Shown piece by piece: positions 32,783 to 53,592 of a DNA stretch of 64,000 bases. Position 1 is the stretch's first letter, and each line of letters begins with the position of its first letter. The notes beneath the pieces are model-generated. The model saw nothing but the letters and a program-made list of their open reading frames with translations, had not been told where the DNA came from and did no database searches. Source of the stretch: a candidate division KSB1 bacterium (GTDB taxonomy: Bacteria; Electryoneota; RPQS01); contig JACRMR010000012.1 of NCBI GenBank assembly GCA_016214895.1, positions 186,001-250,000 on the forward strand, written 5' to 3'. The translations under genes were made by a program, and so were the position numbers.

Positions 32783-32812
32783 GAGATAGAGTCAAAACGC
32801 GAAGAATTCCCG

Positions 32813-32946
32813 TCACCCCCCATAATCCCCCCTTGAAAAGGGGGAAGCAGTACCAAACACCTGTGGCTGCGACGATGACTTTCGCGCTTTCGAGAACATC
32901 AAGATCGCAACCGTCCCCCCTTCTAAGGGGGGACCTACAGGGGGGT
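32813..32946. repeat. Composite C-run/G-run inverted element (MITE-like), nuoC-nuoD gap
   Basis: The left half is CACCCCCC, a short spacer, then a hairpin CCCCCCTTGAAAAGGGGG. The right half (32911-32946) is its inverted counterpart CCCCCCTTCTAAGGGGGG followed by AGGGGGGTTC. A spacer of about 65 bases lies between. Better preserved copies are at 43307, 47341 and 49955. Confidence 0.75.
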
Positions 32947-32986
32947 TCTTTCGGAAGCTAATGGGTCCGGCCGGAATTGCTGCCGC

Positions 32987-35533: not shown

Positions 35534-35619
35534 CGACCCCCATCTAACTTCCCCCACTAAGTGGGGGAAGAACCTGACTCAGATCTCCCCCCACGCAGTG
35601 GGGGGATTAAGGGGGGGTC
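35534..35619. repeat. Paired G/C-run hairpins, variant of the composite element
   Basis: Two hairpins, CCCCCACTAAGTGGGGG and CCCCCCACGCAGTGGGGGG, lie head to head and each is flanked on its outer side by a C-run or G-run. The architecture is that of the element at 47341, but the loop and stem sequences differ. The rest of the gap (35388-35533) shows nothing. Confidence 0.6.
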
Positions 35620-38431: not shown

Positions 38432-38458
38432 GGCAGGTGTCCGCTGACTTCACCTGCC
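38432..38458 (+). repeat. REP hairpin downstream of the RAYT gene
   Basis: GGCAGGTG pairs with CACCTGCC around the 11-base loop TCCGCTGACTT. Same stem as the copy at 39020-39046, which is in the opposite orientation. Confidence 0.8.
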
Positions 38459-38485: not shown

Positions 38486-39001
38486 TCAGAATCCAATCAA
38501 AGCAGTATCAACGTCTACTATTCCGTTCGGAGTTCCGAGATAATCCCGTGCGCTCGACCAAGCGTAAGCTTCAGGGGCCTCGCACAAGCCACGCTTCACT
38601 GGATTCCCGTGAATGTAGCCGAGTTTGACGCGCGCAATGTCATTCGTGAGAACCGCAACATCGTCAAATCGCCGGCGCCATGACCGATTCTGAGTCGATG
38701 CTTGTACTGGCGGAACTCGAATGCAGCGCCGAAGCGTCTGAGTTGTTGACTGCTTGAAAGACCTAAGCAGTTCGGAGATTTGATCGTCCGGCTCGGTCTG
38801 TTGCAGCAACGCGTGAATGTGATCCGGCATCAAGACGAACCCCATGCAGGTGACGCCGAGTCGGTGACGAGCGCGCTCAAAGGCCCAGAGCAATTCGCGA
38901 CAGTCTTCGGGATCGACGAACCAGCGACCGCGTTCTTGTGTCACCGTCGTTACGAAGTGTACGCTGCCCGGTTGGGAAATCTGTTGATGGCGTCGAATCA
39001 T
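38486..39001 (-). CDS. REP-associated tyrosine transposase (RAYT, Y1/IS200-like)
   Basis: I start at ATG 39001, giving 171 residues; the longer frame would translate the REP hairpin. The HUH motif is MPDHIHALLQ and the catalytic Tyr is in YIHGNPVKRGL, followed by AYAWSSARDYLG, all typical of RAYT proteins. These single-copy, domesticated transposases nick single-stranded DNA at REP hairpins and are thought to spread them. REP hairpins stand on both sides in inverted orientation (38432-38458 and 39020-39046), as expected for a RAYT locus. All key residues are intact. Confidence 0.9.
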   Translation of the reverse strand: MIRRHQQISQPGSVHFVTTVTQERGRWFVDPEDCRELLWAFERARHRLGVTCMGFVLMPDHIHALLQQTEPDDQISELLRSFKQSTTQTLRRCIRVPPVQASTQNRSWRRRFDDVAVLTNDIARVKLGYIHGNPVKRGLCEAPEAYAWSSARDYLGTPNGIVDVDTALIGF

Positions 39002-39019: not shown

Positions 39020-39155
39020 GGCAGGTGAAGTCCCCGGACACCTGCCGCCGCAAGATGGTGCGGCATGCCAAGTCCCGGACACCTGCCTCCACAACTTAGG
39101 GGGAAGCGGGATTTCTTTTCTCTGCCGAGGCACGTGTCCGCCGACTTCACGTGCC
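39020..39155. repeat. REP cluster upstream of the RAYT gene
   Basis: 39020-39046: GGCAGGTG, loop AAGTCCCCGGA, CACCTGCC. 39070-39088: a half copy. 39129-39155: GGCACGTG, loop TCCGCCGACTT, CACGTGCC. In the last copy both arms changed together, so the stem is preserved. This is the block before the next gene; no coding potential. Confidence 0.8.
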
Positions 39156-41425: not shown

Positions 41426-42214
41426 ATGAAGTACGGTTTCATCAGAGTTCCACGCTCCGTGCTTGAACACCCGCTGCTGACTCCCGACCACCGCCTCTCT
41501 CCCCTTGAAGCCTACCTGGATCTGCTCGCCCGTGCGAACTGGAAGTGTTCGCAGGTCGAGCTTGGCCGCCGGACCGTCACGATTGAACCCGGCCAACTGC
41601 TCTGCTCGGCAGGCTCGCTCGCGACGCGCTGGAAGTGGCCCAAGACCACCGTGCAACGCTTTCTCGAAGCACTCCATGCGGGTCGGCTCGCAGGTCGCGT
41701 AAACGAGGGCGAGGCCTCCGTGCTTACGCTCTACCCCGACGGCGATATGCCCCAATCAGAACTGGTGGTTACGCGCTCCACGCCAACCGACAAGGCCGTG
41801 CTTGACGTCCCGGCTTCCGCGGAGAGCCGGGTCGATCACCGGGCACATCCTGAAGAATTCTTGGAGAATTCTCCGGTTCCGGAGACAGACTCTCAGAACA
41901 ATTCTTCTGATGGTGCTCCGGAAACATGCTCCGAAGAACGCGCGACCGCGCCGCGGAAACCGCCGTCGCCCGCCACTCCGGCCAAGCCTGCCAAGCACCC
42001 GCTGTTTGACAGCGAACAGTTCGCTCAGTTCGTGAAGGAGACGATGGAATCTGCTCATCCCCCCTCACTCTTTGACGGTTCACTGGTTGACGGGTTGCGC
42101 CGCCGCTATGTCGAAGTACTCCGTGACTCCGGTAAATGGGAGGCGGTACTCGCGATCTTCCCTGAACTTTCTCCGCTCTATCCTCCGCCTGTGCTCGAGT
42201 TGGAGGTCTTGTAA
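41426..42214 (+). CDS. Phage-replication-like winged-helix protein, orphan
   Basis: I start at ATG 41426 (MKYGFIRVPRSVLEHPLL), giving 262 residues. Residues 1-90 resemble the N-terminal winged helix of phage replisome organiser/DnaD-like proteins: EAYLDLLARANW, the PGQLLCSAGSLATRW turn, then KWPKTTVQRFLEAL as recognition helix. The middle is a Pro/Ser/Glu-rich linker and the C-terminal 70 residues are helical. No helicase loader, integrase or other phage gene is adjacent. A promoter with operator lies upstream; a 108-bp repeat array and tRNA-Ala follow. It may be a remnant of a mobile element; DNA-binding function is inferred. Confidence 0.55.
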   Translation: MKYGFIRVPRSVLEHPLLTPDHRLSPLEAYLDLLARANWKCSQVELGRRTVTIEPGQLLCSAGSLATRWKWPKTTVQRFLEALHAGRLAGRVNEGEASVLTLYPDGDMPQSELVVTRSTPTDKAVLDVPASAESRVDHRAHPEEFLENSPVPETDSQNNSSDGAPETCSEERATAPRKPPSPATPAKPAKHPLFDSEQFAQFVKETMESAHPPSLFDGSLVDGLRRRYVEVLRDSGKWEAVLAIFPELSPLYPPPVLELEVL

Positions 42215-42265
42215 TGCCCCCCCTATCCCTTAAGCGGGTTGGAGGCGATCCCCCTCCTGTCACAG

Positions 42266-42690
42266 GGCCATCCCCCCTTCCAAGGGGGGATTACAGGGGG
42301 GTGTCGGAGTTCCCCGATTCCGGGCAGGTGGAGACACCTGCCGCGGCGAAAAGCGCTCCCCCCCTGCCACAGGGCCATCCCCCCTTTCAAGGGGGGATTA
42401 CAGGGGGGTGTCGGAGTTCCCCGATTCCGGGCAGGTGAAGACACCTGCCGCGGCGAAGAGAGCTCCCCCTCCTGTCACAGGGCCATCCCCCCTTTCAAGG
42501 GGGGATTACAGGGGGGTGTCGGAGATCCCCGATTCCGGGCAGGTGGAGACACCTGCCGCGGCGAGAAGCGCTCCCGCACCTGCCACAGGGCCATCCCCCC
42601 TTCCAAGGGGGGATTACAGGGGGGTTCGGAGTTCCCCGATTCCGGGCAGGTGGAGACACCTGCCGCGGCGAGGGCCGCACTGCCGATCGG
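42266..42690. repeat. Tandem array of a 107-108-bp composite repeat
   Basis: Four units start GATTCCGGGCAGGTG at 42316, 42423, 42531 and 42638. Each unit has a REP-like hairpin (GGCAGGTG, loop GAGA or AAGA, CACCTGCC), a link of about 30 bases, and the hairpin CCCCCCTTTCAAGGGGGG followed by TTACAGGGGGGTGTCGGAG. An extra G-run half precedes the first unit at 42269. The units are free of stops in several frames, which creates a spurious open frame. There is no gene between 42215 and 42800. Confidence 0.9.
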
Positions 42691-42727
42691 CCAAGATTCG
42701 CAAAAACCAGTTCTTACCAACCCTGCC

Positions 42728-42756
42728 TTGACTTTCTCACTCAGATTCCCTACCTT
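42728..42756 (+). promoter_or_regulatory. Promoter of tRNA-Ala
   Basis: TTGACT (42728-42733), 17 bases, TACCTT (42751-42756). The start of transcription would be near 42763, 38 bases before the tRNA. Confidence 0.6.
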
Positions 42757-42800
42757 AGCAGTTCACTGGAATCCCGCCGCAAGGCAGGCCAAGTGTCATT

Positions 42801-42873
42801 GGGGCAGTAGCTCAGCTGGGAGAGCACCACGTTCGCAACGTGGGGGTCGGCGGTTCGATCCCGCTCTGCTCCA
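42801..42873 (+). tRNA. tRNA-Ala (anticodon CGC)
   Basis: All four arms fold. The acceptor stem is GGGGCAG with CTGCTCC and includes the G3-U70 pair that identifies alanine tRNAs. The anticodon stem is CCACG/CGTGG with loop TTCGCAA, so the anticodon is CGC and reads GCG. The T loop is TTCGATC; the discriminator is A (42873). CCA is not encoded. Confidence 0.95.
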
Positions 42874-42880
42874 CGAAGGC

Positions 42881-42966
42881 AAAGCTGAAAGCGGAAAGCT
42901 GAAACCTGAAATTCAGCCAGCGCGGATTCGGGCACTTTCTGTTTTCCGCTTCCAGTTTTCCGCTTG
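42881..42966. repeat. Inverted pair of heptamer arrays between tRNA-Ala and SRP RNA
   Basis: The left arm has units AAAGCTG, AAAGCGG, AAAGCTG, AAACCTG. The right arm from 42936 reads TTTCTGT, TTTCCGC, TTCCAGT, TTTCCGC. The arms are largely complementary. Confidence 0.7.
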
Positions 42967-42981
42967 CCCGTCGTTGAATTA

Positions 42982-43085
<104 letters not shown>

Positions 43086-43253
43086 AAGTTCAACGATTTT
43101 TTTCACTGTGAGGTTGAACATCGGGGCAGTGCCAACTGCTGCGTGAGTACATCCGAGCAGTTCAAGTAACACTCGAACTCTGCGATCGGCTCCAACCCTT
43201 GTAAATACTTGGTTTCTATAATACCTGAGACCCCAAATTCCGCTCTGCGCGAG

Positions 43254-43282: not shown

Positions 43283-43306
43283 GATAGGTTCGGGCACGAG
43301 CAAGCC

Positions 43307-43460
43307 CACCCCCCTGTAAGTCCCCCCTTGAAAGGGGGGACAGGCTGCTGTATTGATTTGCTGCGGCGGAAGTGACTGAAGCTCCAATGAGTTCACACCA
43401 GAACTCATCGCTTCCGCGCACGATCCCCCCTTTTAAAGGGGGATCATAGGGGGGTGTCGG
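43307..43460. repeat. Composite C-run/G-run inverted element in the dnaX leader
   Basis: The left half has CACCCCCCTGTAAG and hairpin CCCCCCTTGAAAGGGGGG. The right half has CCCCCCTTTTAAAGGGGG then ATCATAGGGGGGTG. The centre contains ATGAGTTC and GAACTCAT as a further inverted pair. Confidence 0.8.
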
Positions 43461-43597
43461 AGTTCCCGTAGCGCCAAGGGGATAATTACAGGGGGGTCGA
43501 GAGACACCCCCGAGCGCACTGCCCTGCGACACTACAGACGGACAACCACATAGGGTTGTCTCTACCCATGCGCCAGCGGGGGGAGTCGGAATCGGAT

Positions 43598-43636: not shown

Positions 43637-45454
43637 ATGTCCTATCAGGTCCTCGCCCGCAAGTATCGCCCGCAGACGTTCGACGAAGTCGTCGGACAGG
43701 AGCACGTCACGCGCACGCTGAAGAACGCGCTGCGACAGGGACGGCTCGCGCACGCGTTCCTGTTCACCGGACCGCGCGGCGTGGGCAAGACTTCGACGGC
43801 CCGTATCCTTGCCCGCGCGGTCAACTGCCCCAACATTGACTTGAAAGGCGACGCCGAGCCGTGCAACGTCTGCGAGACCTGCCGCGCACTGTTCGAAGAC
43901 CGCGAGCTGGACGTGATCGAAATGGACGCCGCGACGTACAACGGCGTCGATGACGTGCGCCGGATTAACGACTCCTGCCGGCTCGCGCCGGTCGCGGGAA
44001 ACCGGAAGATCTACATCATCGACGAAGTCCACATGTTCTCGAAGCCGGCCTTCAATGCGTTCCTCAAGACGCTCGAAGAGCCGCCCTCCCATGTGATCTT
44101 CATTCTGGCCACGACCGACGTTCAGAAAGTCCCGGCCACGATCCGCTCGCGCGTGCAACGCTTCGACTTCCGTCCGCTCGGGCCTGCCGATATCGCGCCG
44201 CACCTGAAGAAGATTTGCGACAGCGAAGGCTGGGCAAACGACGAGGAAGCGATGTGGATCATCGCCCGCGCCGGAGCCGGTTCACTCCGAGATGCCGAAG
44301 GCCTGCTCGATCAGGTCGTGAGCTTTTCCGGCGGCACTGCGCGCGCCGAAGAGACCCGCGAGGTGCTCGGTGTACTGCCCACGGAATTACTCGCCGACAC
44401 CACCAGTCTGCTCGCGCGGCAGGCCGTGAGCGAAGTTCCGCCCTTCTTCGAGCTCCTCGTGCAGCGCGGTGTCGAATACACCGAGTTCCTGCGCGCGCTG
44501 CAAGGCTATTGGTTGGACATCGTCTTCCTGAAGCAAAACCTCGAACTCTCCGGAACGTCTCCGGAAGAGATCGAACAAATGAAAGCCTGCTCCGCGCCAC
44601 TCGCCATCGAAGATATGTTCCGCCTGATCCGCCTCGCCGAACAGCTCGAAGATTCGCTCAAATGGTCCATGGCCCCGCGCGAACGCTTCGAAGTCTCCTT
44701 CCTGCGCTGGACCACTCTCGAAAACGTCGTCACGCTGCGCGAGCTGATCGAGGCCGTCGCGGCCGATCGAGGCGGCGCATCGCGGGCACCAGGAATACCC
44801 GATTCCGGGCAGGTGGAGACACCTGCCGCGGCGAAGAGCGCTCCCGCTCCTGCCACAGGGCCATCCCCCCTTTCAAGGGGGGATAACAGGGGGGTGTCGG
44901 AGAGCACCGATTCCGGGCAGGTGAAGACACCTGCCGCGGCGAAGAGCGCTCCCGCTCCTGCCACAGGGCCATCCCCCCTTTCAAGGGGGGATAACAGGGG
45001 GGTGTCGGAGATCCCCGATTCCGGGCAGGTGGAGACACCTGCCGCGGCGGCAAGCGAGCCACTCTCCCTCTCCGCCATCCAATCCGCCTGGCCTGAGCTC
45101 GCAATCCGTCTCACCAAACTCAGCCCCGTTGCCGGTGCCAGTGCCGGAGGCTGGCAAGCCGTTGAGCTGAACGGTACGAAGCTCACCGTTCGCTGTCACA
45201 ATCCGCGCGAGATGGCGCAGGCGCAGCTCAAAGAGCAGCTCCCCAATCTGGCCAGAATTCTGAGCGAGCTATTCGGAACCGCGCTCACCGTCGCCATGGG
45301 AAGACCGCTGCCCGAATCGGCGGAGAAACTGGTGGCCCAGACTCCGCCGCTGCCCCCTGTTCCCCCCGCGGAAGGCGGCGATCTGTTCTCCAATTTCGTC
45401 AACCGCATCGGCGGCGTCGAGGTCGATCCCAAAACCGTGCGCGAACCGAAGTAG
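43637..45454 (+). CDS. dnaX: DNA polymerase III subunit gamma/tau
   Basis: The product has 605 residues. The AAA+ clamp-loader part is complete: Walker A GPRGVGKTST (45-54), zinc cysteines C64, C76, C79, C82, the DEVH box (129-132) and the TTD/SRVQRFDF segment. After domain III, residues about 388-471 are translated from two and a third copies of the 108-bp composite repeat (36 residues per unit, SGQVETPAAAKSAPAPATGP inside). A C-terminal domain follows, probably the polymerase-binding part. DnaX loads the sliding clamp and holds the replisome. No Shine-Dalgarno sequence precedes ATG 43637. recR follows after two bases; ybaB, often between them, is missing. Confidence 0.95.
   Translation: MSYQVLARKYRPQTFDEVVGQEHVTRTLKNALRQGRLAHAFLFTGPRGVGKTSTARILARAVNCPNIDLKGDAEPCNVCETCRALFEDRELDVIEMDAATYNGVDDVRRINDSCRLAPVAGNRKIYIIDEVHMFSKPAFNAFLKTLEEPPSHVIFILATTDVQKVPATIRSRVQRFDFRPLGPADIAPHLKKICDSEGWANDEEAMWIIARAGAGSLRDAEGLLDQVVSFSGGTARAEETREVLGVLPTELLADTTSLLARQAVSEVPPFFELLVQRGVEYTEFLRALQGYWLDIVFLKQNLELSGTSPEEIEQMKACSAPLAIEDMFRLIRLAEQLEDSLKWSMAPRERFEVSFLRWTTLENVVTLRELIEAVAADRGGASRAPGIPDSGQVETPAAAKSAPAPATGPSPLSRGDNRGVSESTDSGQVKTPAAAKSAPAPATGPSPLSRGDNRGVSEIPDSGQVETPAAAASEPLSLSAIQSAWPELAIRLTKLSPVAGASAGGWQAVELNGTKLTVRCHNPREMAQAQLKEQLPNLARILSELFGTALTVAMGRPLPESAEKLVAQTPPLPPVPPAEGGDLFSNFVNRIGGVEVDPKTVREPK
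44801..45051 (+). repeat. In-frame composite repeat array inside dnaX
   Basis: Units begin GATTCCGGGCAGGTG at 44801, 44909 and 45017, an exact 108-base period; the third unit stops after the first hairpin. Both full units share the dnaX-specific variant GATAACAGG, where the intergenic array has GATTACAGG. The repeat reads through without stops. Confidence 0.95.
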
Positions 45455-47308: not shown

Positions 47309-47340
47309 TGCCGCACCGCAGAGCGCGCGGAGGGTTGCCG

Positions 47341-47490
47341 CCACCCCCCTATGATCCCCCCTTGAAAGGGGGGATGGGGTACTGGTGCGATGAGCTCTGG
47401 TCTGAACTCATTCAGCGACCACTGGTTCAGCCGCAGCAAGTTATTCTCGCAGCCCGTCCCCCCTTTCAAGGGGGGACTACAGGGGGGTGG
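47341..47490. repeat. Composite C-run/G-run inverted element (best copy)
   Basis: The left half is CCACCCCCCTATGAT, then CCCCCCTTGAAAGGGGGG and ATGGGGT. The right half from 47456 is CCGTCCCCCCTTTCAAGGGG continuing to AGGGGGGTGG. Outer ends are inverted repeats of about 35 bases. The centre of about 75 bases has a GATGAGCTCTGGTCTGAACT stretch shared with other copies. Confidence 0.85.
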
Positions 47491-47545
47491 GAGCTCCACT
47501 CCCGGAGACGAAACGGCCGTTTCATCCATGATACCGTAATCCTGT

Positions 47546-49933: not shown

Positions 49934-49954
49934 CGCCCGCTTGCGGAATCTCCG

Positions 49955-50105
49955 ACACCCCCCTGTGATCCCCCCTTGAAAGGGGGGATGGGGTTCCGCA
50001 ATGATATGTTCTGATCCGCACGGATCGAGCTATCGCAAGTTCAGCCGCAGCTGCTCAAGACAGCAGCCCGTCCCCCCTTTCAAGGGGGGATCACAGGGGG
50101 GTGCG
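49955..50105. repeat. Composite C-run/G-run inverted element upstream of recA
   Basis: Left half: ACACCCCCCTGTGAT and CCCCCCTTGAAAGGGGGG. Right half: CCGTCCCCCCTTTCAAGGGG continuing to AGGGGGGTG. It has the same centre length class as the copy at 47341, with GATATGTTCTGATC in the centre. Confidence 0.85.
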
Positions 50106-50118
50106 GAGCCTGAGTTCC

Positions 50119-53129: not shown

Positions 53130-53545
53130 TTGCACCCCCCTATGATCCCCCCTTGAAAGGGGGGATGGGGTTCAACGTGATGAGTTCTGCTCTCAGCTGA
53201 TTGAGCGCTCCTCACGAATCGCATCCACTGCTCAGAAACCCATCCACGCCTTTCAAGGGTATTGGCTTCGCCATGCCGCGCTCACGACGGTAATAAATCT
53301 TGCACCCCCCTATGATCCCCCCTTGAAAGGGGGGATGGGGTTCAACGTGATGAGTTCTGCTCTCAGCTGATTGAGCGCTCCTCACGAATCGCAGCACCCC
53401 CCTATGATCCCCTCTTGAAAGGGGGGATGGGGTTCGGGGTGATGAGTTCTGCTCGGACCGGATCGACGTGCGGTTAATACCCGCTTCAGCTATTCGTGAT
53501 CGCAGTCCGTCCCCCCTTTCAAGGGGGGACAACAGGGGGGTATCG
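53130..53545. repeat. Cluster of composite element halves and a local tandem duplication
   Basis: Left halves of the C-run/G-run element are at 53130, 53303 and 53395, each followed by GTGATGAGTTCTGCT. One intact right half is at 53508-53545 and a decayed one near 53236. A segment of about 130 bases from 53091 recurs at 53261 and includes the last codons of the preceding gene. No gene between 53124 and 53592. Confidence 0.8.
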
Positions 53546-53592
53546 GTTTTCTTGCTATTCTCAACGCGTCAGCATTTCAGTCTTTTCTTCCG

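Follow-up and report, generated by a model that had tools for sequence, protein, structure and literature searches.

Why should a unit of two joined hairpins be repeated in tandem between genes and again, 2 kb away, inside an essential replication gene? The question arises in a stretch of 64,000 nucleotides from a candidate division KSB1 bacterium, here called the window. On its forward strand, at 42245-42671, lies an intergenic array of four units, each consisting of an H2 palindrome and an H1 hairpin, with periods of 107 and 108 bp; TRF reports a period of 108, 4.0 copies and 93% matches. The H2 palindromes, located with a covariance model (R2), are at 42262-42308, 42369-42415, 42477-42523 and 42585-42631, and the H1 hairpins (model R1) are at 42316-42352, 42423-42459, 42531-42567 and 42638-42674, all on the forward strand, the first of them reading GATTCCGGGCAGGTG-GAGA-CACCTGCCGCGGCG. 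Downstream follow, on the same strand, tRNA-Ala (CGC; 42801-42874), ffs, the bacterial small SRP RNA (42986-43084), and dnaX. The preliminary description had called this a four-unit tandem array of two fused hairpins upstream of these three genes, and both the gene order and the array are as described, the latter by TRF and by anchor spacings of 107, 108 and 108 for H2 and 107, 108 and 107 for H1. Both hairpins form in single-stranded DNA folds (z ~ -4), and GGCAGGTG-N4-CACCTGCC has 7 exact matches in the window, compared with 0.04 expected from shuffles. Because the genome is a draft of 26 contigs, assembly could have affected the copy numbers of this array and of the one described next.

The second array is found within dnaX (DNA polymerase III gamma/tau, 605 aa; 43637-45454, forward strand; identified by Pfam and by orthologues in relatives). 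Here the order is REP-H2-REP-H2-REP (44801-45049, forward strand; TRF and covariance models), where REP is the class to which H1 is assigned below. The REPs are at 44801-44837, 44909-44945 and 45017-45053, and the H2 copies at 44855-44901 and 44963-45009, all on the forward strand. TRF gives a period of 108, 2.3 copies and 97% matches at 44799-45049. The array is located in a Pro/Ala-rich linker, the reading frame is intact, and the translation is DSGQVETPAAA-KSAPAPATG-PSPLSRGDNRGVSE. In the eight sister genomes whose DnaX linker could be read, it is likewise Pro/Ala at this place but of other sequence, in each case without REP or H2 motifs. The linker joins the ATPase core to the tau C-terminal part and is probably disordered; the units may persist there for that reason and because their sequence is free of stops.

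To what kind of element does the H1 half belong? It is a single cassette from a larger family of hairpins built as GATTCCGG-stem-AAGA/GAGA-stem-bulge-CGGCG, in which the flanks GATTCCGG and CGGCG are constant and the stems are interchangeable (GGCATGTG/CACATGCC, CAGGGA/TCCCTG, CGGGGTG/CACCCCG and CCGGGTT/AACCCGG). It is a short palindrome, within the 20-40 nt range of REP elements, and its stem changes are compensatory: across 22 distinct sequences 98.3% of cells are paired and 44 cells carry double changes, which affect 7 of the 11 pairs; none of 500 shuffles reached this level, and the signal is lost when the partner is slid. In single-stranded DNA folds the hairpin has a one-base bulge over a three-pair lower stem. 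The covariance model finds 171 copies in the genome at E<=0.05 and 166 at 1e-5, and 142 of 150 copies lie outside predicted genes. The family is present in 12 of 13 sampled genomes of the order, with 5-166 copies (5-152 copies in 11 of the other 12), and is nearly absent elsewhere in the phylum, with at most 20 copies, in 2 of 26 other genomes. Carriage by viruses was considered and rejected, an exact REP match having been found in none of the viral contigs.

Published REPs with their RAYTs (REPtrons, BIMEs) are likewise short bulged hairpins present in more than 100 copies, mostly extragenic (PMC2817692, PMC8266576), and the family described here resembles this REP/RAYT (TnpA-REP) system in its one-base bulge above a lower stem, its more than 100 copies, its clusters and its transposase genes bracketed by inverted REPs. 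Unlike published REPs, it has the tag GATTCC...CGGCG and not GTAG or CGTC; neither tetranucleotide was found at the REP end in the aligned set, where the flanks are invariantly GATTCC and CGGCG, these flanks having been required when the set was gathered. In published REPs neighbouring copies alternate in orientation, but here they share it in 59 of 59 pairs. H1 belongs among the REP elements, which are accompanied by a small transposase, so the array strikingly illustrates a type of genome parasite that is already known. The preliminary description had overlooked both this identity and the RAYT transposase nearby. It is unusual for a REP superfamily to span an order while lacking both the GTAG and the CGTC tag, and REP/RAYT biology now takes in an uncultured order whose tag belongs to neither published superfamily.

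The RAYT gene of the window (38486-39001, reverse strand; about 171 aa from the ATG at 39001; PF01797, E=4.7e-8) is 3.3 kb from the intergenic array. RAYTs are recognised by HxH, a tyrosine followed by an NP motif, and a threonine near the start (PMC2817692). This gene has the Y1_Tnp domain, HxH (in MPDHIHALL), a tyrosine followed by NP(L/V)(R/K)xG and a threonine near the N-terminus, and contains the motifs YIHGNPVKRG and HFVTTVT. It is bracketed by REP-like hairpins of the form GGCAGGTG-N11-CACCTGCC, one on its 3' side (38432-38458) and one, inverted relative to the first, on its 5' side (39020-39046). PF01797 transposases were found in 19 of 21 genomes searched; the RAYTs examined share HxH, a tyrosine followed by NP(V/I)(R/K)x(G), and a threonine near the start, and most of the 17 genes whose flanks were read are bracketed by hairpins. 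In two sister genera (loci L141 and L142), the RAYT genes have inverted exact copies of the REP hairpin, GGCAGGTG-AAGA-CACCTGCC, on both sides. In the bacterium's own genome no intact RAYT flanked by an exact short-loop H1 was found, the nearest having an 11-nt loop, and its RAYTs are bracketed by related hairpins only (window 38.4-39.1 kb, and contigs C7 and C8). Judging from this linkage, the spread of REP was probably driven by RAYT. At another locus (L144; G000:C3:160000-163500), a RAYT gene lies within an array of at least 16 GGCACTTG-A/GAGA-CAAGTGCC hairpins with a mostly 47-bp period and identical orientation on either side of the gene.

The H2 half is a different palindrome, with the core C6-TTTCAA-G6-NAYA-G6 and the consensus (A/G)T-C6-TTTCAA-G6-A(T/C)-NA(C/T)A-G6-T, in which the outer A-T/G-C pair covaries (12 vs 10 sequences). 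At E<=1e-5 there are 53 matches in the own genome and 39 in one sister genome, and other genomes of the family have 0-6. Several copies form inverted pairs with an interior of 64-67 bp and an overall length of about 160 bp, as in the MITE/BIME-like element at 43302-43461 (alignment and pair spacing) and, by alignment, in further pairs at 47337-47494, 49951-50108 and 53390-53547 and a degenerate one at 32809-32952. These pairs have terminal inverted repeats, and as in MITEs and REPINs, which they resemble, the ends of the 160-bp element are conserved and the centre is looser. H2 brackets none of the 17 RAYT loci examined and is thus not a REP by that measure, and no mobiliser or transposase for H2 was found among them. 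It seems unlikely that H2 is a separate small palindromic class, without a known transposase, that sits inside conserved enzymes and was recruited together with REP as a repeat linker of DnaX. Elsewhere (L125; G000:C3:229241-229693) seven H2 copies stand in direct tandem with a 67-69 bp period and without REP, and another type of C/G-run hairpin, CCCCCCACGCAGTGGGGGG, occurs in the intergenic interval 35551-35605 of the window.

How, then, did the two halves come together? A DNA search of the whole genome gave 75 matches, nearly all of one half only. The direct H2-REP unit occurs only in the intergenic and dnaX arrays, and a composite family spread through the genome, which the preliminary description had led one to look for, was rejected when the genome-wide count yielded none beyond these two; the halves are separate families. 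At two loci on contig C3 (155.6 and 157.1 kb), REP and H2 are joined head-to-head. Within the intergenic array the units differ from one another by 4-8 substitutions per ~107 positions and within the dnaX array at 3 of 108 positions, compared with 4-13 substitutions between the arrays, and single-base losses are confined to the intergenic units (unit alignment of both arrays). The recent amplification or homogenisation proposed earlier is supported by this unit identity of 93-97%. The two arrays have the loop-variant order G-A-G in common, as well as an ATCCC variant in the third REP, but TTACA in the intergenic array is TAACA in dnaX, each fixed within its own array. Such a pattern suggests the copying of a block followed by homogenisation, and since multi-unit blocks stand at both sites, ahead of tRNA-Ala and within the dnaX linker, one array was most likely copied from the other, in either direction; the evidence is a handful of sites.

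Copies inside genes bear on whether the units serve the host. An approximate codon-usage gene caller, trained on this same genome, was run on 545 kb of sequence (83% coding); by its calls, 8 of 150 REP and 8 of 53 H2 copies lie in predicted genes. H2 is found in mnmE (twice), an aldehyde dehydrogenase, a dioxygenase, a SpoIID-like protein, pabB/C (antisense) and dnaX (twice). REP is found in dnaX (three copies), the N-terminus of an FAD oxidoreductase, an HhH-GPD repair protein, a membrane protein, the last residues of a Por secretion tail protein, and one short doubtful frame. As for codon phase, REP starts at phase 0 in dnaX and the FAD protein, and the translations of two other genes show it in the remaining phases; the H2 copies of dnaX are in phase 1, five sense copies spread over four genes are in phase 2, and the pabB/C copy is antisense. 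Because REP thus uses all three phases and H2 two plus the antisense strand, no particular encoded peptide is kept, and the in-gene copies look tolerated and not selected for one peptide. That the sequence is poor in stops, and so tolerates insertion into genes, agrees with averages of 5.5 of 6 open frames for REP and 4.2 of 6 for H2; the eight in-gene H2 copies, with 4.4 vs 4.2 of 6, show no clear difference in stop-codon avoidance. The preliminary description was right that the dnaX copies are in frame, both intervals being 108, but its reading of 107 against 108 as a sign of frame selection rests on two dnaX and three intergenic intervals, which are too few. Any intact gene must show a frame-keeping period, and since the copies in genes are few, in varied frames and even antisense, such "frame selection" is no more than the usual purifying selection that removes broken genes.

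Taken together, the explanation we favour, with a probability of roughly 80%, is that of chance juxtaposition, tandem amplification, block copying and tolerated units in dnaX. The unit would be a chance meeting of two non-autonomous palindromic repeats: REP, which would have been spread by RAYT, an HUH/Y1 transposase recognising the folded single-stranded hairpin, and H2, a second palindromic repeat for which no mobiliser was found. The joined pair would then have been amplified in tandem, probably through replication slippage or unequal recombination aided by the hairpins, after which one array was most likely copied across and the two homogenised separately, with selection purging frame-breaking copies from dnaX. 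We infer that the units have no host function. A quite unlikely alternative is that they are a selected protein module, a linker repeat domesticated in DnaX of which the intergenic array is a decayed copy. The dnaX period of exactly 36 codons, the agreement of the two dnaX units at 105 of 108 positions, the spacer that reads as a Pro/Ala linker (AKSAPAPATG) and the in-frame copies in other genes would all suit such a module, but the varied phases leave no common peptide, the linkers of sister DnaX proteins are unrelated, and more than 90% of REP copies are outside genes.

REP arrays in other bacteria affect transcript ends and supercoiling, and strong hairpins upstream of RNA genes might likewise form a regulatory device (a terminator, mRNA stabiliser or transcription insulator) for the block of tRNA-Ala, ffs and dnaX. 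This is very unlikely, as there is no terminator-like site in 42150-43150, the same repeats occur at more than 100 unrelated sites, and the array was not seen in any relative; a terminator or promoter role was rejected for want of such a site by consensus. Most improbable of all is a single MITE of 107-108 bp that transposes whole: the two arrays do share the entire unit including the spacer, but they stand only 2 kb apart, the direct unit occurs in no third place, and its halves are dispersed singly.

The favoured reading makes the dnaX and intergenic arrays a further member of a published phenomenon, because intragenic REPs and Rickettsia palindromic elements (RPEs) have already been described. 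As described in PMC3733652, whose main text names UvrABCD, RecBCD and Pol I but not dnaX, intragenic REPs of the GTAG/CGTC type are often clustered in frame, over tens of residues, and often fall in genes for replication and repair. The in-frame REPs in dnaX and the HhH-GPD repair protein resemble these, but here two palindrome families alternate in one array. RPEs lie in frame in conserved genes (PMC2229807), and the likeness to them is one of size and placement. As with RPEs, the in-frame insertions here are absent from orthologues: alignment to solved relatives shows 15 extra residues precisely where H2 lies in the aldehyde dehydrogenase, the MnmE G domain has ~67 aa more than 3gee ahead of its NKID motif, and the dnaX linker is a third case. 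Unlike RPEs, the REP copies are mainly intergenic and linked to RAYT. What is unusual is that the composite combines two families and that the array in dnaX has an intergenic counterpart, so that a hairpin array of two families is clearly seen in an intergenic region as well as within an essential replication gene. The in-frame inserts in MnmE, aldehyde dehydrogenase, dioxygenase, PabB/C and DnaX provide a test set for how mobile hairpins reshape conserved proteins. Besides H2, mnmE (L111:14440-16047) contains a run of SPPSLTGGTKGG repeats before the G-domain NKID motif that look like a further C/G-run palindrome family. The SpoIID-like gene (L115:751-2775) apparently has several palindrome-derived inserts (PPFKGG, SPPTSSGGTKGG and SSLIPHPSSL), and in the Por secretion tail protein (L177:164-2614) the REP in the last codons seemingly replaces the usual end of the sorting tail.
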